Shown one piece after another: positions 33,925 through 45,352 of a DNA stretch of 64,000 nt. Source of the DNA: Euzebya pacifica (GTDB lineage Bacteria > Actinomycetota > Nitriliruptoria > Euzebyales > Euzebyaceae); assembly GCF_003344865.1 (NCBI RefSeq), contig NZ_CP031165.1, forward strand, positions 4,159,910 through 4,223,909. Direction: 5' to 3'. The position numbers and the translations under genes are program-made. Each line of letters begins with the position of its first letter. Position 1 is the stretch's first letter. The notes beneath the pieces are model-generated. The model did no database searches. It had not been told where the DNA came from and saw nothing but the letters and a program-made list of their open reading frames with translations.

Positions 33925-36561
33925 TCAGCGGGTGATCATCGGGTCGACGGACTGGTCATCGGGGCCGAGCGGTGGTCCGGCCAGCACGTCCGCAAGGTCC
34001 TGCCGTCCGTGGACGCCCAGCACCTGGTAGGCACGGGCGAGGTGGTTGTCGACCGTACGGACGCTGAGGACCAGGTGGTCAGCGATCTGCCTGCTGGTCC
34101 AGCCCTCTGCGGCAAGCGTCGCGATCTGCCACTGGCGAGGGGTCAGCCCGGCCGCGGACGATCCCCGCAACGCCGTCACGGCGGGAGAGGTCAGGTCGAC
34201 GAACTCGCGGGCATGGGCTTCCGCCGCAGCCCGGCGCTGCATCGCACGCCCGTCGCGTCGGGACCTGCGGTCCAGGGCAGCGCCACGGGCCAGCAGGTCC
34301 ACGGCCCAGAGCCGGGCCCCGAGGTCCATCAGTCGCTCGCAGCCGTCCTCGAGCAGGCCGTCGGGGTCTGCGGGATCGGCGAGACCCCGTGCGGCCACCC
34401 CCACCGCCGGCCACAGGCGACCATCGACACGTGCCGCCACCTCGGCCAGGGCACCGGCCTGGTCGAGCCCCCCGAGGCGGACTGCGGCGAGCAGGCAAAG
34501 GCACTGGTGGAGCAGGTCCCCGCTGGCTTCCGCCCGTGCGGCGGCCCGCCGCATGAGTGCGCAGGCCCGTGGGAATCGGTGCGTGGCGGCGAGGGCCCAA
34601 CCCTCGGCGGCGGGCACGGCCCACGCCCACCATCCGAGGTGTGGGCGATGGCTCTCCCGGGCGGTACGCGCCGCGGCGACGGCGGCATCGCGGCGACCCT
34701 GATGGGCCGCGATCTCCGCGGCAACCGCGCCCACGAACGCCCGATGACCGTATGGGTCGGTCTCGGTCAACGTCACGTCGATCCGCTCGACCAGTGACCT
34801 CGCCAGGTCGCCACGTGCCATCACCAGATGCGCGGCGGACTGGCCCACGTCGAACACCACGTTCGACAGGAGCAATGCGGCGTGGGAGCGGTGATCCTCG
34901 GGGCCGTCCAGCACACCCTGCAGGTCACCGAGGTGCAGTCGCAGGTAGCGCCGGCCAGCCCACATCCGGACGTGGTGCTCGGGGGCCACAGCAGGGTCGG
35001 CCAGGAGCGGGATCGCCTGTTCGGTCAGGCGCCAGGCAGCATCCAGGTGTCCGGCGGATGCGACCGCGACGTGGCGGACGGCAAGGGCGACCAGCCGCAG
35101 GTCCGGCGTCGCGCGTGGTCCGACCCGTTCTGCAAGGACGGCAGCCTCGGCCATGTCTCCCCCGCAGAGGGCGATCATCGCGGCGAGCGCGGTGGTCGCA
35201 TCCCGTCCCGCGCAGTCCTCGGAGGTGCCGTCCTGCAGCGCAGGGGGGTCGCCGATCGGGGCCAGCGCCACCTGCGCTGCCTCGCGGTCCCCGCGGCCGA
35301 AGAACGCGGACTCGGCCAGCCCGAGTCGTGCTTGCAGTCGCTGCTCCGGTGTCCCTCCCAGGTGCTCCACCATCGCGAACCAGCGTTCGGCTTCGATCGG
35401 TTCACCACGCAGCAGGGCCGCACCAGCGAGCAGCAGGATCGCCCCGCAGTCGTTCGGCCGGCGTTCGTGGACGACGGCGGCAAGGCGTTGGGCGCCAGCG
35501 GCGTCCCACCGCACGAGCATGTGCCGGCTTGCCTCGGCGATGATGTCGAGGTCGACGACCTCGCCGGCGTCCATCTGCCAGCGCGCATGGCGAACCGCCC
35601 CGTCCGGCAGGTCCGGCCACCCGCGTGCTGCCGCGTCCGGGACGACCTGCAACAGGGCGCTGGCCAGTGCCGCCCGACGTGTGGCTCCGATGTCGGCCAG
35701 CACCACCTCGGCCAGCAAGGGGTGGGCCAGGGACACGAGGTGCACCGGTCCGTCGCCGACCGTGACGAGGGCCTGCTGCTCGACCGCCTCGGCTGCCGCA
35801 GCGCCCACGACGTCGACGAGCACGCCCAGCGGCAGCGGCGAGTCGTAGGCGAGGACCTCGACCGCTCGCCGCGTCGTGTCGTCCACGACCTCGAGGTGGG
35901 CCGCCATTGCGCGGCGCAGTCGATCGGTGAGGGGCAACCGCTCGAAGCCCGGTCGCGGCGCGATCCGCGCCAGCTCGGCGAGCAGCAGCGGGTTGCCCTC
36001 CCCCAGCTCGACCGCCCAGCGCACCGACGTCGTCGTGGACCGCCCACCTGCGACGGTGCGGACCAGCGTGGCGGCGTCGACGGCACCGAGCGGCGTCAGC
36101 ACCACCTCGCGCAGCAGCTGTTCGTCGTGCAGCCCCTGCAGGGGTGGGGGGACCTCTGCGTGCTCCCGAACGGTGAGCACGACGCGCAGGCCCTCGCGCG
36201 CCGCGTCGGCCACCAGTGCCGCCGACACCCCGTCCAGGTGGTGGACGTCATCGAACCCGAGGACCGTGCCCGCCGCGGCGAGGGCACCGAGGGCGCTCCT
36301 CACGGCACCCAACGCCCCGGACGTGACGGCGGGAGACACCTCGCCGGGCAGGAACCGGGCAAGGGCACCCAGCGGGACGGGAGCGGTCGCGGGCGTGGCG
36401 GTCACGCGGACGACGTCGATATCGGGTTGGGCCTGCAGGGCGCGCAACACGCTGGTCCGCCCCATCCCCGATGTCCCCGTCAGCAGCACTCCCGAGCCGT
36501 CATCGAGCGCACGCCCGATGTCGTCCAGCACACCGGTCCGTCCCACCAGCGTCAACACCAT
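33925..36561 (-). CDS. Large LuxR-type ATPase regulator (LAL family-like)
   Basis: 878 residues: an N-terminal AAA/STAND ATPase, a long helical repeat region, and a C-terminal LuxR helix-turn-helix (about 805-865: LTPRQWQIATLAAEGWTSRQIADHL, then VRTVDNHL). The P-loop reads GTSGMGRTS, with Arg in place of the usual Lys; the Walker B-like stretch is VLGFDDVHHLD. Such regulators bind an effector and ATP and usually activate nearby genes. It is divergent from the pseudopilin operon, and a 7-bp inverted repeat lies between them. The frame could start at ATG 36561 (MVLTLVGRTG), which fits the family N-terminus. Confidence 0.9.
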   Translation of the reverse strand: MVLTLVGRTGVLDDIGRALDDGSGVLLTGTSGMGRTSVLRALQAQPDIDVVRVTATPATAPVPLGALARFLPGEVSPAVTSGALGAVRSALGALAAAGTVLGFDDVHHLDGVSAALVADAAREGLRVVLTVREHAEVPPPLQGLHDEQLLREVVLTPLGAVDAATLVRTVAGGRSTTTSVRWAVELGEGNPLLLAELARIAPRPGFERLPLTDRLRRAMAAHLEVVDDTTRRAVEVLAYDSPLPLGVLVDVVGAAAAEAVEQQALVTVGDGPVHLVSLAHPLLAEVVLADIGATRRAALASALLQVVPDAAARGWPDLPDGAVRHARWQMDAGEVVDLDIIAEASRHMLVRWDAAGAQRLAAVVHERRPNDCGAILLLAGAALLRGEPIEAERWFAMVEHLGGTPEQRLQARLGLAESAFFGRGDREAAQVALAPIGDPPALQDGTSEDCAGRDATTALAAMIALCGGDMAEAAVLAERVGPRATPDLRLVALAVRHVAVASAGHLDAAWRLTEQAIPLLADPAVAPEHHVRMWAGRRYLRLHLGDLQGVLDGPEDHRSHAALLLSNVVFDVGQSAAHLVMARGDLARSLVERIDVTLTETDPYGHRAFVGAVAAEIAAHQGRRDAAVAAARTARESHRPHLGWWAWAVPAAEGWALAATHRFPRACALMRRAAARAEASGDLLHQCLCLLAAVRLGGLDQAGALAEVAARVDGRLWPAVGVAARGLADPADPDGLLEDGCERLMDLGARLWAVDLLARGAALDRRSRRDGRAMQRRAAAEAHAREFVDLTSPAVTALRGSSAAGLTPRQWQIATLAAEGWTSRQIADHLVLSVRTVDNHLARAYQVLGVHGRQDLADVLAGPPLGPDDQSVDPMITR

Positions 36562-36678: not shown

Positions 36679-37833
36679 ATGAGGTGGACCGACGAGGCGG
36701 GCTTCACGCTCGTGGAGCTGTTGGTGGTGATCGCCATCATCGGGGTGACGATCCCGCTCCACTCGACGCTGACGGAGCGGATAGGGGCCAACGAGGAGCT
36801 GATCCAGCGCACCCTCGCCCTGCTCGTCGAGGCCCAGGAGGCCTACGTCGTCGAACACGGACGGTTCGCCGACAACCTGCGCGAGCTCGGCGACTCCGAA
36901 CCGGAACTCGTCGACGAGCAGCTCGCGACCGGCCGCACGGATGGCTACCTCGTCGAGCTCCACGACGTGGACGGTGACGGCTGGACCGCCAGCGCGGCTG
37001 CTGCGGCACCGGGGCTGAGCGGCCGGGCGGCCTACGTCGTCGACCAGACCGGCGTGATCCGCGAACGAGACTGCCGCGCCGGGCAGGTCTGGGACCATCG
37101 GGAAGGGGGCTGCGTTCCCGATCCTGCGGCTGCCCTCATGCCTGCCGCGGAGGAGCTGGTCGGGACGCTGGACCGGATCGGTTGGGGCCTGGTGCTGTCG
37201 GCTGCCGCCGAACAGGTCAGCGAGGAGGCCTTCGTCGACCAGGTCGCATCGCGGGTGGACGTCGACGGGGACGGGCGGGTCGGCCTCGACGAGCTCGTCG
37301 TCACCGACCCGTTCGCCATCGCCGAGGACCTCGTCGACGCCCCCGAGGACGCGCGCGCCACCATCGCGGGCGAGGATCGTGCCCGAGAGCTCGTCGACGC
37401 CCACCGCCGCTGGTTGGTGGCGGTCCTGCAGCCGGGCATCGCCGGCGAGGCCCTGCCTGACGGGGTGCCCCTGGCCGATCGCCTCGACGACGCCCGGGCG
37501 CTGCTCGACGGCGTCGGCAGCATCGACGCGGCCACGTCACTGCGGTTCCTGGGCGACCACGTGGACGACCTCGACGTCACCCCCGAACCCCGTGGCGACA
37601 TGATGCATCCGTCCGCTCGGGTCAACGCCCACCGTCGGGACGTCCTGCGGCGCGACGTCGCGTACATGGTCCGTTTCCTCGACGAGGGCAGGCAGGAGGC
37701 GCTCGTCGCCTCGCTGCACCGTGTCCGGGCCCGAGGCGACGGCACCGGCGCGCCCGAGGACTGGGTCGTTGGCCCCGCGGCGGCGCTGATCACCGCGCAG
37801 GTCGACCTGACCCTCCGACTGCTGGGCCACTGA
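36679..37833 (+). CDS. Type IV pilin-like protein with EF-hand loop
   Basis: 384 residues. The N-terminus is a class III (prepilin) signal: MRWTDEAG|FTLVELLVVIAIIGV, with Glu at +5 and a single hydrophobic helix. The rest is much larger than a normal pilin (about 150). A calcium-binding EF-hand/dockerin-like loop DVDGDGRVGLDE lies near residue 195, after a segment with two Cys (DCRAGQVWD, GGCVPD). ATG 36679 has GGAGGGG eight bases upstream; an earlier in-frame ATG at 36616 lies in the palindrome region and lacks a ribosome site. First gene of a three-gene operon; no pilus assembly ATPase or prepilin peptidase is in the window, so processing would use enzymes elsewhere. Confidence 0.82.
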   Translation: MRWTDEAGFTLVELLVVIAIIGVTIPLHSTLTERIGANEELIQRTLALLVEAQEAYVVEHGRFADNLRELGDSEPELVDEQLATGRTDGYLVELHDVDGDGWTASAAAAAPGLSGRAAYVVDQTGVIRERDCRAGQVWDHREGGCVPDPAAALMPAAEELVGTLDRIGWGLVLSAAAEQVSEEAFVDQVASRVDVDGDGRVGLDELVVTDPFAIAEDLVDAPEDARATIAGEDRARELVDAHRRWLVAVLQPGIAGEALPDGVPLADRLDDARALLDGVGSIDAATSLRFLGDHVDDLDVTPEPRGDMMHPSARVNAHRRDVLRRDVAYMVRFLDEGRQEALVASLHRVRARGDGTGAPEDWVVGPAAALITAQVDLTLRLLGH

Positions 37834-37872
37834 GGGCCGGCGTCTCCCACCCCGTCGAACCGAGGAGCGACC

Positions 37873-40800
37873 ATGACCGACCAGACACCCCAACCTTCGG
37901 TGACCCGCCGAACCGTCCTGCGCTGGGGCACCACCGTTGCGGCGACGGGAATGGTCCTGTCCAACGACCCTGTTCGGCTGCTGGCGGCCCCGAACCCCGA
38001 TCCTGCCGCGTCCCCACCGGCCAAGCTGACGTTCACCACCCGCCTGCGCCGGGCGGCCGACCAGCTCGACCTGACGCTGGAGTTCTGGAACCTCGAGCTC
38101 GTCACCGGGGACGGTCCCGCACGCCTGCAGCGGGAGAAGTCCAACAAGGGCAGCTACCTGGTGGTGGAGTTCCCACCGCAGGCGATCGCCGAGGAGGCCT
38201 TCTACCGCGCGGGCGGCTCGATGGAGGACGACGCCCAGGAGCCCGAGCCCCCGTACCCACCACCCTCGCCACCCTCCGGGGACGAGCCGCCGGCCCCACC
38301 GCCGATCGCGGCGCGGATGGCCAACCCGACACGGCTCGCCTTCTACGTCCCTGCCTCGGTCCTGCCCATGCCCTACACCGTTCCCCGACTGTTGTCGTGG
38401 CTGGACCTGACGCCCCGTGTGGTGGACAACGCCACCGCGCGCGACGTCCTGCCGGCCCAGCTCAAGTCGCCGACGGCCCCATCCGACAGCCAGACAGCCA
38501 TCGAGCTGCCCTGGCACCTCGTGCTGTCTCCCCACGCCCAGTCGGCGTGGGCCCACGCCCATGCGCCCGTCAACCGCGGTGGGCGGACGGAGCTGTGGCA
38601 CACCCGCCTTGCCGTGCGCGGCCTCGACGGGCAGGGACAACCGCTCCTCGACGAGGACGACGAGGACGGCCGCACCGTCCGGGCCGTCTGGTGCACCGAC
38701 GACGACCCCGAGTTCAAGGACTACGTGAAGCAGGCCGACCCGCCGTCGACCCTCGCCGCCGACATCCCGTTCCGCACCTCCCTGACGCGCCGCGACCGGC
38801 TCGACCTCGTCCGCCTGTCCTCCGACTTCGGGTTGTCCAGACCTGGCCGAGCAGGACGCCAGGGCGCCGACGGTGGCCCGTTCGTCCCGGAGGTGGTGGA
38901 GGTCGACCGGCTGATGCTGACTGCCCTCGGCGGCTACCTCGACTCCGCCTTCGACCACGAGCTGAAGTACAGGGCCGGCGCGTACAACACCTCGCTGCTG
39001 CAGTGGCGGCACCTCGCGGCGATGGGGCGGGACAGCTACGTCCGGGTCGTCCGGAAGGGCTTCCTGTTTCCCTACGGGTTCAAGGCGGCGCTGGTCCGCA
39101 TCACCGAACGCCGCATCGACCACATCGCCGACCTTCCGACGAAGCCGGCAGGGGCCTACCTGCGGCAGCGGGTGTTCATCGTCGTCCTGAAGGCTCGGCG
39201 GCGTCTGGCCGGCGACCCGGCGTTGCGCCATGACGGCAGGCAGGTCCCCTTCCGGTCGTTGACCTGCGTCACGAAGGCCACGCCCCCGCTGAGCACCCCG
39301 ACGGACTACGCCGGACTTCCGGAAAGCGAGGTGTTCGTGCCCTCCGTCGACGGCGTTCCCTACGCCTTCGACCTGCGGGTCACCGACTGGTCGGGTGCCA
39401 CGGTCCCGCTCTCCGCCCCCGCGGTCTGGGTCGACGAGGTGCACGCCTACGATTCCGAGGCGCTGGCCCCGATCATCAGCGCCTACCAGAGCGCCCCGGA
39501 GTCGACGGCCGGCGCAGCCCACGCGATCGACCTCGAGGGGCGGGAGATCGCCTTCGCGCCGCCCAAGGACCCCGGCGACACGACCTTCGTGGTGCGCAGC
39601 CTCGCGGTCGGCGCGGAGGAGGCCGACCCCGCCTTCGGCCCCGATGACCTCGCCGGTGCCGGCAACCCCGGCTTCTACCCAACGCTCGGCGAGGCCCAGG
39701 TGGAGCTGTCCACCGGCGGACAGGCCAGCGGCCCCGGTGGCGCACCGTCGGCACGGTTCGGCTACCACCCCGACTACGTCGTGCACGGGTTCGGCCAGGG
39801 AGGCCAGGACCACCCCAACCGTGGCGACGTGCTGTTCACCCGCGTCGGCCAGGCACCGGCGGGGCTGCTGTCGGTCGACACGAAGCAGGCCGGCGGCGCA
39901 GCCACGCCGGCCCTGGCGATGGAGGGCTGGTCCCGCGAGCTCGGCCCGACCGGCGACCCGGAGGACACCAGGACGGGCAGCTTCGACCCGACCAAGGTGC
40001 TCGGCGACGGGGCCAGGATCCTGGGTGGCATCGCCCTGAAGACCGTCCTCGCGGCGGTCGAGGACTTCCTGACCGACAAGGAGAAGGCCCTCAAGATCGT
40101 CAGCCGTCAGGAGACCGGCCCGAACCGGGTCGTGACGCTGATCGACTTCCACCCCGACCTTCAGGCGGGTCCGCTCGAGGAGCTGACGCTGTTCGCCCCC
40201 GACAAGTCGTTCGGCAAGGACTACCCGCCGAAGGCCGACATCCACGCGGAGATCGTCACCAACATCGACGACCCGTCGGCGTCGACGTCCAGGGTGGACG
40301 GTCGCATCACCGGCTTCGTGATCCTGCTGTTCGGCGGGGAACGGGACGGCGAAGCGGGTGACACCACCTTCATCCGCGTGCCGGTGCAGCACCTGGAGTT
40401 CAAGGCCGGCAGCAGCACCAAGGACGAGCTCCACATCCAGCTCGGCGACATCTCCTTCCACGGGGTCCTGGCCTTCGTGGAGGAGCTCAGCTCGCTGCTC
40501 GCCTTCGGCGACAGCGGCGGGCTGAAGATCGATGTCGACGGCACCGGCATCCAGATCGAGCTGATGGTCGCGTTGCCCGACATCAGCGTCGGGGTGCTGT
40601 CGCTGACCAACATGGCCATCTTCGTCAAGCTGGTCATCCCCTTCGACGGCTCGCCCGTGGAGCTGCTCTTCGCCTTCTGTTCTCGCGAGAACCCCTTCAC
40701 CCTGACCGTCTGGATCTTCGGCGGGGGCGGTTTCGTCGGCATCACCGTCAGCGTCCGTGGGGTGGAGCTGTTCGAGCTCGCCTTCGAGTTCGGCGGCGGC

Positions 40801-41244
40801 TATGCCCTTTCCCTGGCGGGGCTCGCCAGCGGCAAGGTCGAGGCGAAGTCCGGCATCTACTTCCGTGTGGAGACCCTCGAGGACGACACCCAGCAGTGCA
40901 CCCTCGAGTCCTACTTCCGCATCGCCGGGGCGGTCAGCATCCTCGGCCTGATCACGGTCAGCATCGAGTTCTACGTCTCGCTGACCTACAGCAAGCCGCC
41001 CGGGAGCCTGGTGGGCGAGGCCAGGTTGACCGTCGAGATCGACCTGACGGTGTGGAGCACCTCCGTCGAGCTCACCGTCCGCAAGGAGCTGGCCAAGGGT
41101 GACGGTGGCGACAGCAGCTTCGCCGCAGCCGCCCCTGCGGCGCTGGAGGCCGACAACGGTCCCGCGGTGACGTGGGCGGACCTCATGACCGCCGCGGACT
41201 GGGAGCAGCAGTACGTGACCGCCTACGCCCCGATGGGAGCCTGA
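37873..41244 (+). CDS. Large Tat-type exported protein, unknown family
   Basis: 1123 residues, not recognised. The N-terminus has a twin-arginine-like signal: TRRTVLRW, then a weakly hydrophobic segment (GTTVAATGMVLS) and LLAAPN. A Pro-rich insert occurs near residue 120. From about 745 to 1060 the chain is rich in alternating hydrophobic/polar strands with many Gly and Phe (for example IFGGGGFVGITVSV, LAFEFGGGYAL), suggesting a large beta structure such as a barrel or sheet. The C-terminus has an Ala-rich stretch and ends WEQQYVTAYAPMGA. It starts 39 bases after the pseudopilin gene; the next gene starts one base after its stop, so they are coupled and probably act together. Confidence 0.7.
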   Translation: MTDQTPQPSVTRRTVLRWGTTVAATGMVLSNDPVRLLAAPNPDPAASPPAKLTFTTRLRRAADQLDLTLEFWNLELVTGDGPARLQREKSNKGSYLVVEFPPQAIAEEAFYRAGGSMEDDAQEPEPPYPPPSPPSGDEPPAPPPIAARMANPTRLAFYVPASVLPMPYTVPRLLSWLDLTPRVVDNATARDVLPAQLKSPTAPSDSQTAIELPWHLVLSPHAQSAWAHAHAPVNRGGRTELWHTRLAVRGLDGQGQPLLDEDDEDGRTVRAVWCTDDDPEFKDYVKQADPPSTLAADIPFRTSLTRRDRLDLVRLSSDFGLSRPGRAGRQGADGGPFVPEVVEVDRLMLTALGGYLDSAFDHELKYRAGAYNTSLLQWRHLAAMGRDSYVRVVRKGFLFPYGFKAALVRITERRIDHIADLPTKPAGAYLRQRVFIVVLKARRRLAGDPALRHDGRQVPFRSLTCVTKATPPLSTPTDYAGLPESEVFVPSVDGVPYAFDLRVTDWSGATVPLSAPAVWVDEVHAYDSEALAPIISAYQSAPESTAGAAHAIDLEGREIAFAPPKDPGDTTFVVRSLAVGAEEADPAFGPDDLAGAGNPGFYPTLGEAQVELSTGGQASGPGGAPSARFGYHPDYVVHGFGQGGQDHPNRGDVLFTRVGQAPAGLLSVDTKQAGGAATPALAMEGWSRELGPTGDPEDTRTGSFDPTKVLGDGARILGGIALKTVLAAVEDFLTDKEKALKIVSRQETGPNRVVTLIDFHPDLQAGPLEELTLFAPDKSFGKDYPPKADIHAEIVTNIDDPSASTSRVDGRITGFVILLFGGERDGEAGDTTFIRVPVQHLEFKAGSSTKDELHIQLGDISFHGVLAFVEELSSLLAFGDSGGLKIDVDGTGIQIELMVALPDISVGVLSLTNMAIFVKLVIPFDGSPVELLFAFCSRENPFTLTVWIFGGGGFVGITVSVRGVELFELAFEFGGGYALSLAGLASGKVEAKSGIYFRVETLEDDTQQCTLESYFRIAGAVSILGLITVSIEFYVSLTYSKPPGSLVGEARLTVEIDLTVWSTSVELTVRKELAKGDGGDSSFAAAAPAALEADNGPAVTWADLMTAADWEQQYVTAYAPMGA

Positions 41245-41245
41245 C

Positions 41246-44200
41246 ATGCCCGCCTCCTCGCTCTTGCTGACCGCCATCCCCCACGGCGTCGACGCCGACG
41301 ATCCGCTGGTTGACAACGGCGGCGGGGACACGATGCGGGTGCTCGTCCACCTCGCCCCCCGTCTGCGCACGCCGGGCACCCTGGCCGATCACCCGCACTG
41401 GGTGGACTGGCCCGCGACCCTCGCCGGGGTCTCGTGGTCCGTCCGGTTCCCGGACCTCGGGGTGCCCGACATCCCGGCGACACCGGTGGGCACCGCGGCG
41501 GAGTCCGCGCGCTGGACCGCCGTGCTGCCACCCGACACACCCGTCGACGCCCACGCCTACCAGGGCTTCGACCACCGTCCGCTGGTGTCCTACCAGAGCA
41601 CCGCGATCATCGAGTTCCTGGCCGACCGGTGGGGCCGCGTCGGGGCGATCAGCCCGACGGACCATCCGTTCTTCGCCGACCTCGTCGGCGACGACGACGG
41701 CTTCGGCGCCATCGGCTTCGAGGCGTTGTGGGCTCGCCCGACCACCGAGGAGACCGGTCCGCAGCGGCGTGCACGCCTCCGCGCCGAGATCGCCGCGGAG
41801 ATCAACGCCGCGAGCGACAGCCCGGCGGACTGGGCGACCCCCGCCGCCGGACCGCTGCCCGCTGACCCAGAAGCCCGCCGCGACGAGCTCGGCCGGCGGT
41901 TCCTCCGCTTGGCGAGGTTCCACAACCGCGACCGCATCGGCGTCCACGAGAACGACGCGATGCCGGAGGAGCCGTTCCTTCCCGACGTGCACCGCGTGCT
42001 TGCAGCCGTTCGACGCCACCCCACCCTCGAGCGGCTCCTCGGCACGGTCGTGGAGCTGGTCTTCCCCGCTCCCGGCGCGACGTCGACGTCCACGGCCGTG
42101 CAGGTCCTGGCCACCCTTCCGGCCGGCATCGACGTCGTGTCGGCCCGGACGATGTGCACCGTCCAGCCGCAGGCGTTCCGTGCGGTGTCCGCCACGCCCG
42201 GTCAGACCGACCTGGTCGACGGCTACCTGGCGCTGGGGGACCCCAGCCGGTTCGCGGTGGTCACCATCGACCCGGACGGCGGGGGGTTGAAGGCCCTGCA
42301 GTTCGCCGACAACCTGGCCCGTTCCCGCGTGCTGGTCGGCCCCGACACCTACGAGCCGTTCAGCGCGGCCACACCCGAGGCCTACGCGCTGCCCAGCCAG
42401 TCCAGCGCCGGCCTCGCCGTCGTCCGGCCGGGACGAGCCCAGGGGATGGCCGCCAGGCTGGCGGCGGTCACCGCCATCAACGCCGTCGCCTTCACCGGTG
42501 ACGGCACCCCCGCCGGCGAGCCGACCCTGTGGGCCGAGGACCTCGTCCGCGGCCACCGCTTCGACATCCGCCTGGGCGGGGAGTCGGCCTGGCGGTCGCT
42601 GCAGGCGCAGGCCGGGAGCTACTGGTTCCTCACCGGCGGCGGACCCCAGGAGCTCCCCGGCATCGAGGAGGAAGCCGTCGTCGTCGCCGGCGCGACCAGC
42701 GCAGGCGGTGCCACCCCGCCACCGGACCTGTACCTGCAGGAGTCGCTGATGCGTTGGGGTGGCTGGAGCCTCGCGGCCCGTCTGCCCGGCACGTCCCTGG
42801 GGCCAGCCGACGAGGTCGGCGCCGACCCCGACGCCACGCAGCCCGACCCTTCCCTGCGGTTCCGGGCGGCGCTGGGCGTCGCCCCCGGGTCGCTGCCCCG
42901 GCTGCGATACGGTCAGAGCTACCACGTGCGGGCGAGGGCCGTGGACCTCGCCGGCAGCAGCGCCGCCCTCGACGACGACAACCCGGCGGTCGCGGAGTCG
43001 CCGCCGGTGCACTACCTGCGGTTCGACCCGGTGCCCTCACCCGTCACGGTGCTGGCCCATCCCGCCGTCGTGCCCGGGGAGAAGGCCGAGACCCTCGTCG
43101 TGCGGACCGACACCAGCGCGGGCCCCGCCGGGGACGACACCGTCACCGAGACCAGGCGGCACGTCGTGCCCCCGCGCGGCAGCGTCGCGCAGGCCGAGCA
43201 CCACGGCATGTTCGACCTGGCCGACCATCCCGGCCAGCCGCTGGACCCCGGCGCGCATGCGGCGTACGCGTCGCGCGACGCCGAGGACCTTGCCACCCAT
43301 CCCGACGGCGTCGCCGACCCCGACGATCCGCAGCGGTCGAAGTACTTCCCCGTGCCACACCTGACGATCCAGCACCTGTCCGACCCCCTCGCGCGGGCAG
43401 CCACGGTGCGTGGCCTGCCCGAGGGCAGCGGCGGCACCGGCACCCGGACGGTCGTCCCCTTCGCCGTGGACGACTGGCCGAACTGGGACAGCTTCGGCCT
43501 GCGGGTCACCGGCGGTCCCGCGAGCAGCTGGTCCTTCGATCCCGTCCAACGGATGCTGGACCTCGTCGTGGCCCCCGCGGAGGACCTCGACCTGCGGCTG
43601 TCCAGCAAGCCCGAGGACGACCAGGTCTCGCTGATGGGGGTGCTCAGCTGGATCCGGGCATGGCGCGAGGCGAACCCCTCCCACCCGTCGGTCACGGGGA
43701 CGACCATGGAGGCGCTGGTCGCGGAAGCCGCAGCCGGTCACCACTGGATGTGCACCCCGTGGCGCACCATCCGCGTGGTCCACGCCGTCCGACGGCCACT
43801 GGCCGACCCCGACATGCCCGAGGGCCAGCTCTCCATCGCCCGAGACCATGGTGACACCCACGCCACGGTCCAGTGCCGGCCGATGTTGCTGCACCGGCGC
43901 AGCACGAGCAAGGTCGACATCGAGGCGACGTGGTCCGAGCACGTCGACAGCGGCCCGGGCGGTCCCGACCCCACCGAGTCCACCAGCGTCCGGAGCGTCC
44001 CGATCAGCATCACCATCGATCCGCGATCCGGCGAGGACGACGAGGAGTTCGTGTCGGAACGCCACGAGTTCGGCGACACCCGCCACCGGCTCGTCACCTA
44101 CCAGGCGGTCGCGACCAGCGCCTTCGTGGAGCACTTCCGCGACGCCACGGCAGTCGTCGTCCCCGAGTCCGCACCAGCGCAGGTCGATGCGAGGGGCCTG

Positions 44201-45352
44201 GTCGCCTCCACCGTCGTCGTCACCGGTGACGACGGCGCGGAGCTCCGGCAGGGCACGGATGGTGACTACACCGTCGACGAGGCCGCCGGGACGATCAGCC
44301 GGGTCCCCACGGGCACCCTTGCCGCCGGCGCCACCGTCGACGTCGGGTTCGTGGTGCCAGCGATCACCACCGCCTCGGTGCCGAGGACACGGGTCGTGCC
44401 CAGCAGCGCCCGGCCCGCTGCGCCGCTGCTGGAGTACGTCGTCCCGACCTTCGCCCACGAGGTCGGCGACGGCGGGGCGCGGACCCGACGCGGACGGGGC
44501 CTGCGGGTGTACCTGCGACGACCGTGGTGGTCCTCCGGTGACGGGGAGCAGCTCGCCGTGGTCCTGTGGCCGGGCGCCGCAGGCGGGGGCCCGTTGCCCG
44601 AGGACCTGGAGTCCCATGTCACCCAGTGGGGGTTCGACCCCGTCTCGGCGTGGAGCACCAGCAGCAACCCGCCGGCCCCCATGCCGCCCCACCCCACGCA
44701 GGCCCACTTCGCCCTGTCGACCGGAGCGGTCGAGGGCTTGTCATTGCCCGGGGTGCCCGGCACCACGGTCGACATCGCCCCCCACGACGTCGTCTACGAC
44801 CCGCAACGCGATCTGTGGTCGGCTGACATCACCGTCGGCTTCGGCCACGGCGACAGGACCTACTGGCCGTTCCTTCGACTCGCGCTGGCGCGCTACCAGC
44901 CCCACTCGCTGGCCGGGGTGTCGCTGTCCCGGGTGGTCCTGACCGACTTCGTCCAGGTCGCCCCGGACCGCACGGTGACGGTCGCCAGCAACCGCCAGGG
45001 ACACCGGGTGGTGACGGTCACGGGCCGCACGCACGCGCGCAACGGTGCCGTGGCCGGCCCGCCGACCATGCGGGTCACGATCGAGGCGACCGAGCCCGAC
45101 GTCGACGACCCCGACCTGCGCTGGCAACGGCTCGTGACCCGCGCCGGCGTACCGAACCCCGTCGTGCTGCAGGCCTCGCTGCAGGACGGCAACCACGCCA
45201 CCTGGAGCGGCGAGGTCGTCGTCCCACCGACGCAGGGCCCGACACGGCTGGTCGTTGAGGAGGTCGAGCGGCATGCCACCACGAGCGCGTCGTCCTTCGT
45301 CCCCCGGGACACCGCCGAGCGTGTCGTCTTCCTCGACACCATCGACCTGTGA
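41246..45352 (+). CDS. Very large protein of unknown function (1368 aa)
   Basis: 1368 residues, not recognised. No obvious signal peptide or membrane helix, so export would need its partners or another route. Composition is Asp/Ala/Pro-rich with many predicted strands. Around residues 975-1035 it has a pattern (GDYTVDEAAGTISRVPTG, then VDVGF) like small beta-sandwich modules seen in secreted and virion structural proteins. Other notable segments: a conserved-looking HWMCTPWRTIRVVHAVRRPL near 835 and YLRRPWWSSGDGEQLAVVLW near 1090. It begins one base after the stop of the 1123-aa gene and ends 12 bases from the convergent ligA stop. Third gene of the operon. Confidence 0.65.
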   Translation: MPASSLLLTAIPHGVDADDPLVDNGGGDTMRVLVHLAPRLRTPGTLADHPHWVDWPATLAGVSWSVRFPDLGVPDIPATPVGTAAESARWTAVLPPDTPVDAHAYQGFDHRPLVSYQSTAIIEFLADRWGRVGAISPTDHPFFADLVGDDDGFGAIGFEALWARPTTEETGPQRRARLRAEIAAEINAASDSPADWATPAAGPLPADPEARRDELGRRFLRLARFHNRDRIGVHENDAMPEEPFLPDVHRVLAAVRRHPTLERLLGTVVELVFPAPGATSTSTAVQVLATLPAGIDVVSARTMCTVQPQAFRAVSATPGQTDLVDGYLALGDPSRFAVVTIDPDGGGLKALQFADNLARSRVLVGPDTYEPFSAATPEAYALPSQSSAGLAVVRPGRAQGMAARLAAVTAINAVAFTGDGTPAGEPTLWAEDLVRGHRFDIRLGGESAWRSLQAQAGSYWFLTGGGPQELPGIEEEAVVVAGATSAGGATPPPDLYLQESLMRWGGWSLAARLPGTSLGPADEVGADPDATQPDPSLRFRAALGVAPGSLPRLRYGQSYHVRARAVDLAGSSAALDDDNPAVAESPPVHYLRFDPVPSPVTVLAHPAVVPGEKAETLVVRTDTSAGPAGDDTVTETRRHVVPPRGSVAQAEHHGMFDLADHPGQPLDPGAHAAYASRDAEDLATHPDGVADPDDPQRSKYFPVPHLTIQHLSDPLARAATVRGLPEGSGGTGTRTVVPFAVDDWPNWDSFGLRVTGGPASSWSFDPVQRMLDLVVAPAEDLDLRLSSKPEDDQVSLMGVLSWIRAWREANPSHPSVTGTTMEALVAEAAAGHHWMCTPWRTIRVVHAVRRPLADPDMPEGQLSIARDHGDTHATVQCRPMLLHRRSTSKVDIEATWSEHVDSGPGGPDPTESTSVRSVPISITIDPRSGEDDEEFVSERHEFGDTRHRLVTYQAVATSAFVEHFRDATAVVVPESAPAQVDARGLVASTVVVTGDDGAELRQGTDGDYTVDEAAGTISRVPTGTLAAGATVDVGFVVPAITTASVPRTRVVPSSARPAAPLLEYVVPTFAHEVGDGGARTRRGRGLRVYLRRPWWSSGDGEQLAVVLWPGAAGGGPLPEDLESHVTQWGFDPVSAWSTSSNPPAPMPPHPTQAHFALSTGAVEGLSLPGVPGTTVDIAPHDVVYDPQRDLWSADITVGFGHGDRTYWPFLRLALARYQPHSLAGVSLSRVVLTDFVQVAPDRTVTVASNRQGHRVVTVTGRTHARNGAVAGPPTMRVTIEATEPDVDDPDLRWQRLVTRAGVPNPVVLQASLQDGNHATWSGEVVVPPTQGPTRLVVEEVERHATTSASSFVPRDTAERVVFLDTIDL

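Follow-up and report, generated by a model that had tools for sequence, protein, structure and literature searches.

Two adjacent genes of Euzebya pacifica, here designated P2 and P3, form a gene pair whose association is far beyond chance, and since they are kept together so strictly in named hosts covering at least 12 phyla, P2 and P3 very likely constitute one functional unit. Neither protein of this strictly kept pair is named by any of the libraries searched.

Organization of the P2–P3 locus

The window (the whole stretch of DNA analysed, 64,000 nucleotides of contig NZ_CP031165.1) carries the open reading frames of P2 (1123 aa, 120 kDa) at positions 37873..41244 and of P3 (1368 aa, 145 kDa) at positions 41246..45352. 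P2 is the first and P3 the second gene of the conserved pair, and both are on the + strand, separated by a gap of 1 bp. A third gene on the same strand, P1, ends upstream of P2 with a gap of 39 bp. The combined mass of P2 and P3 is 266 kDa, and a single copy of P2 is present in this genome. In a sequence-only reading of the region, the three genes had been described as an unrecognised export operon. Its coordinates, gaps (39 and 1), strand and sizes were all confirmed from the open reading frames, its Tat-like signal on P2 and lack of signal on P3 agree with the sequences, and its descriptions of P2 as strand-rich and of P3 as beta-sandwich-like agree with the AlphaFold2 models (for P3, via the orthologue L086).

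Conservation of the P2–P3 pair

Relatives of P3 were sought in the GTDB set, one genome per species, with an alignment-based query, and 385 stretches encoding a P3 relative were identified, as against zero matches in an earlier contig scan with the P3 sequence alone. The best 80 of these 385 stretches, eight plasmid loci and the window were compared. In 85/85 of the compared loci that include upstream sequence, P2 precedes P3 in the same orientation, with a median gap of 18 bp between the two genes; the four compared loci without P2 start inside P3, at a contig end. A genome search for the adjacent pair had been proposed in the sequence-only reading, which would have been abandoned if homologues were regularly found without the others. 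For P2 and P3, which were together at all 85 loci, this was not observed. Of its proposal that three genes work together, the part concerning P2 and P3 therefore stands, while the part concerning P1, absent at every other locus examined, does not.

For sampling in the reverse direction, a P2 profile was run against 296 genomes of the phylum to which the window belongs. P2 was present in eight of these (the window's own genome counted), and P3 adjoins it in all seven of the others, indicating that the module is rare and patchy, yet strictly paired. The distance matrices of P2 and P3 were correlated in a mirror-tree comparison (r=0.857 for 68 loci; permutation maximum 0.155), but since linked genes share descent, which explains part of this value, the correlation indicates co-inheritance rather than contact. 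No homology between P2 and P3 themselves was detected (hhalign probability 0.9%).

The pair is also found on several plasmids, and among the plasmid matches relatives of P2 and P3 are adjacent in Streptomyces, Rhizobium, Cupriavidus and Diaphorobacter. Along a FastTree tree of P3, the host phylum changes at least 23 times, a count that is approximate owing to the long branches of the tree but points to horizontal transfer. The distribution of P2–P3 is best explained as that of a horizontally mobile two-gene module. In Streptoalloteichus hindustanus, one genome has the pair twice (L063 and L078), and the two copies differ greatly.

Searches against known families and systems

P2 and P3 were compared, singly and by homologue alignments, with Pfam, NCBIfam and the sequences of PDB, and nothing convincing was found, in agreement with the earlier claim that the system is unrecognised. 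Among the defence models of PADLOC-DB the only match was Cas3b (E=0.087), and in PHROGs only a local stretch of one homologue was matched; P3 was not found in phage records, nor P2 in viral contigs. No third gene is common to the pair loci, any one Pfam family being present in at most three of 101 flanking genes. An earlier account of the pair, searched for by locus tag and by description, was not found in the open-access literature. What is new is the pair of proteins as such, which could not be placed in any known family or system; the biochemistry that it performs may turn out to be conventional.

Predicted structure of P2

The AlphaFold2 model of P2, built with 69 sequences, gave a mean pLDDT of 83. 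The clearest similarity of the model is that of residues 878–1085 (40504..41127, + strand), a predicted porin-like amphipathic beta-barrel or meander, which was aligned by VIA-align to CymA (4d51) with Z 13.5 and rmsd 4.7 over 196 aligned residues. In family-averaged Kyte–Doolittle values, the hydrophobic face of the barrel strands scored +2.4 and the polar face -1.0, and these strands are more amphipathic than the N-terminal strands of P2. The shape of the predicted barrel and the amphipathicity of its strands, from which alone this reading is drawn, suggest a lipid or membrane target. A conserved C-terminal helix (41191..41229, + strand; family consensus W..YC.AFA) follows a low-confidence linker in the model and the alignment, and is possibly a docking element.

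The N-terminal body of P2 is unmatched. The structural aligner bore mainly on P2 residues 878–1085 and on the C-terminal part of P3 and hardly touched the rest of P2 or the first half of P3, so a new fold is not claimed. P2 contains four and P3 three cysteines; conserved polar residues are scattered through both proteins, with no obvious catalytic cluster.

In 16 homologues (L036, L037, L038, L042, L043, L047, L055, L057, L067, L071, L074, L085, L086, L090, L092 and L094), a conserved extra domain of about 400 aa with a motif like ERWVIDTRRFAG is fused before P2. Many of these fused P2s open with a Tat signal that precedes the extra domain; the domain was not encountered as a gene of its own.

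Predicted structure of P3

P3 was modelled through its orthologue L086, which is 34% identical to the P3 of the window (AlphaFold2, mean pLDDT 89). Mapping from this model places a row of fibronectin-III/Ig-like domains at about residues 847–1368 of P3 (43784..45349, + strand). Alignment of this C-terminal part with tenascin and fibronectin fragments by VIA-align gave Z of about 10 with rmsd of 13–16 over several domains, values that indicate a row of FnIII-like domains and not kinship. The C-terminal domains of P3 are thus similar in fold to fibronectin type III/Ig proteins, but sequence similarity to these proteins was not detected and the N-terminal half of P3 is unmatched. Complement/alpha-2-macroglobulin and integrins, which appeared in Foldseek, were rejected as relatives of P3, the matches reflecting generic Ig/FnIII domains; query-normalised TM-scores were near 0.1 throughout the Foldseek searches. 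On a plasmid of Streptomyces nigrescens (L016, 17213–21850), P3 carries an inserted peptidoglycan-binding domain (PG_binding_1, E=1.7e-4), the sole sizeable Pfam/NCBIfam match among the family members, and a His/Asp/Gly-rich C-terminal tail.

Tat signals in the P2 family

The N-terminus of P2 (MTDQTPQPSVTRRTVLRWGTTVAATGMVLS) carries a Tat-like signal, located at 37903..38007 on the + strand (TRRTVLRWGTTVAATGMVLS...) and assigned from the sequence and from the Tat signals among homologous P2s. The test for a Tat signal required a twin-arginine motif and, after it, a hydrophobic stretch free of charged residues; 34 of 79 P2s passed it, against 13 of 674 genes in the neighbourhood (Fisher p=1.5e-26). 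As the P2s are related and hence not independent of one another, this p value makes the case look stronger than it is, but the recurrence of the signal in different phyla does not hinge on it. TatC is encoded by the genome of the window. The other 45 of the 79 P2s, the main Pseudomonadota clade among them, fail the Tat-motif test, and the presence of the signal changes at least nine times over the P3 tree. A genuine Tat signal was found on none of 85 P3s, a Tat-like match in the P3 frame of L030 being discounted as it lies upstream of the gene start. Sec signals were assessed by eye and hydrophobicity only, and no signal peptide was found on the P3 of the window.

Possible function of the P2–P3 pair

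The best explanation at present, to which we give slightly less than an even chance, is that P2 and P3 form one complex, in which P2 is exported in the folded state by Tat where the signal is present and P3 is a hitchhiker. The two proteins would assemble in the cytoplasm, as we infer, and in the Tat-bearing lineages the Tat translocase would export the folded complex, with the signal-less P3 riding on P2. Once outside the membrane, P3 could serve as an adhesive arm or an extended scaffold, and a hydrophobic ligand or a membrane could be bound by the barrel of P2; in the Tat-less lineages, the complex might be used inside the cell or released by another route. In favour of this explanation are the strict pairing, the mirrored distances of P2 and P3, the Tat signals on P2 only, the TatC of the genome, the barrel and FnIII-like domains of the models, the peptidoglycan-binding domain in the P3 of S. 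nigrescens and a mostly exported-looking downstream gene in six actinobacterial loci; a putative surface or extracellular assembly is plausible. Against this explanation, more than half of the P2s carry no recognisable signal and there is no shared third gene hinting at function.

HybOC and PaoABC are established cases of a hitchhiker exported together with the subunit that bears the signal (PMC4273604). As in these systems, the Tat-bearing P2–P3 lineages have one signal-bearing subunit and an adjacent gene for a signal-less partner; the rule that exactly one subunit bears the signal holds for the pair of the window, but not for all homologues. The known hitchhikers differ in being cofactor enzymes (135 kDa for PaoABC), whereas P2–P3 is by prediction mostly of beta-structure with a mass of 266 kDa, no cofactor family or motif was found in it, and its co-export is putative. 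A review gives Tat cargo of up to 150 kDa (PMC6708511), and hitchhiker export of a 266-kDa pair would therefore be exceptional. The pair thus offers a concrete test of the cargo size limit of Tat and of whether Tat hitchhiking reaches beyond cofactor enzymes. The more specific proposal, that the pair represents an undescribed two-subunit class in which a folded beta complex of about 266 kDa is exported as a Tat hitchhiker and its barrel acts on lipids or membranes outside, is rather unlikely to hold in full. If the barrel does act on lipids, P2 would represent a novel type of exported protein that binds lipids or membranes, present in single- and double-membrane bacteria alike.

Alternatively, the P2–P3 complex might work inside the cell; P3 would then never be exported, and the Tat signal would be an optional feature that some lineages have. 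The invariable lack of a signal on P3, the 45 of 79 P2s without the Tat motif by the test used and a mass above the range quoted for Tat all favour such a role, which is nevertheless improbable in our estimate: the strong enrichment of Tat signals on P2 in many phyla argues that export is no oddity, and the peptidoglycan-binding insert in one P3 also counts against it.

The pair might also be a secreted two-component factor acting on membranes, either a pore former or a competition protein: the barrel of P2 would enter a foreign membrane and P3 would bind the target. This would be consistent with a barrel that is porin-like and amphipathic although single-membrane bacteria also have the protein, and with the patchy, partly plasmid-borne distribution of the pair. 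The libraries searched, however, gave no match to a toxin or defence family, and a shared partner gene resembling an immunity gene was not found at the loci; we regard this role as quite unlikely.

Dedicated chaperones are known for other Tat substrates, and P3 might be such a cytoplasmic export chaperone or quality-control partner, staying behind while P2 alone is exported. The strict pairing and the presence of the signal on P2 only are in line with this assignment. It is, however, made doubtful, about as much as the membrane-acting factor, by the size of P3, which exceeds that of its client P2, by its terminal FnIII-like domains, typical of extracellular proteins, and by its persistence where P2 has no Tat signal.

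That P2 is an ordinary outer-membrane porin is very improbable even though outer-membrane barrels are its best fold matches and residues 878–1085 resemble CymA and OmpG in their amphipathic up-and-down strands, because the match spans only about 200 of 1123 residues (less than 20% of P2), P2 has a Tat signal or none recognised, and it is conserved in Actinomycetota and Paenibacillus, single-membrane bacteria without a Gram-negative outer membrane. The combination of a Sec signal, judged by eye and hydrophobicity, and an outer-membrane host, characteristic of outer-membrane barrels, was not found for the P2 family.

Separation of P1 from the conserved pair

P1 (36679..37833, + strand; 384 aa, 41 kDa) is a pseudopilin with the prepilin cleavage site EAG^FTLVELLVVIAIIG (Pfam N_methyl, E=1e-6) and one EF-hand-type loop, DVDGDGRVGLDE. 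Both the cleavage site and the calcium loop had been noticed in the sequence-only reading, and both were found, although the Pfam EF-hand match (E=0.006) is below the curated cut-off. At no other locus examined, the nearest P3 relative included, does a prepilin-type gene adjoin P2–P3, and two genomes of the same genus (G162 and G247) carry P2–P3 without P1 or the LuxR-type gene described below. Searched against a further 60 genomes of the class, P1 gave no match beyond its generic pilin N-terminus. The occurrence of homologues without the others, by which the earlier proposal of a trio was to be judged, is thus what was found for P1: the trio as a conserved system is refuted, and P1 is a bystander outside the conserved module. 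An export or surface assembly driven by the pseudopilin is accordingly extremely unlikely, even though P1 lies 39 bp from P2 on the same strand and the genome has a prepilin peptidase along with 13 matches of the N_methyl type, since P1 was found at none of the other loci, the two same-genus genomes that retain P2–P3 included. Given these 13 matches and the peptidase, P1 can belong to that machinery. It shares the classic prepilin site with type IV pilins and pseudopilins but, unlike the pseudopilins of type IV pilus and type II secretion systems, is not linked to P2–P3 at any other locus examined.

Neighbouring genes and divergent variants

A gene for a large LuxR-family ATPase regulator (33925..36561, - strand; GerE, E=8e-13) is located divergently, reading away from P1. 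Loosely clustered regulators were identified near seven loci, few of them clearly similar to the LuxR-family gene of the window. Six further actinobacterial loci have loosely similar regulators close to the pair, in some cases convergent with P3. With this weak association, the LuxR-family gene is a possible regulator of the pair.

The Agrobacterium vitis plasmid locus L018 (8251–22959) encodes a Tat-signal-bearing P2 of about 3040 aa, and its P3 is split into adjacent genes of 1262 aa and about 600 aa, the former matching N-terminal P3; this split accounts for L018 being the sole outlier in the P2–P3 gap. A dpdE gene is located downstream of the pair in L018.

In six actinobacterial loci (L030, L032, L034, L035, L040 and L041), a third gene of about 390–440 aa follows P3 after 8–36 bp. 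The N-terminus of its product is mostly signal-peptide-like, and no Pfam family was found in the two that were scanned. In L053 and L069, a related signal-less gene of 622–624 aa, with a Big_3_5 Ig-like domain at its end, is located 2–16 bp after P3. In Cupriavidus and Rhizobium (L014 and L015), the pair is followed downstream by genes for patatin-like phospholipases, a possible link to lipids.
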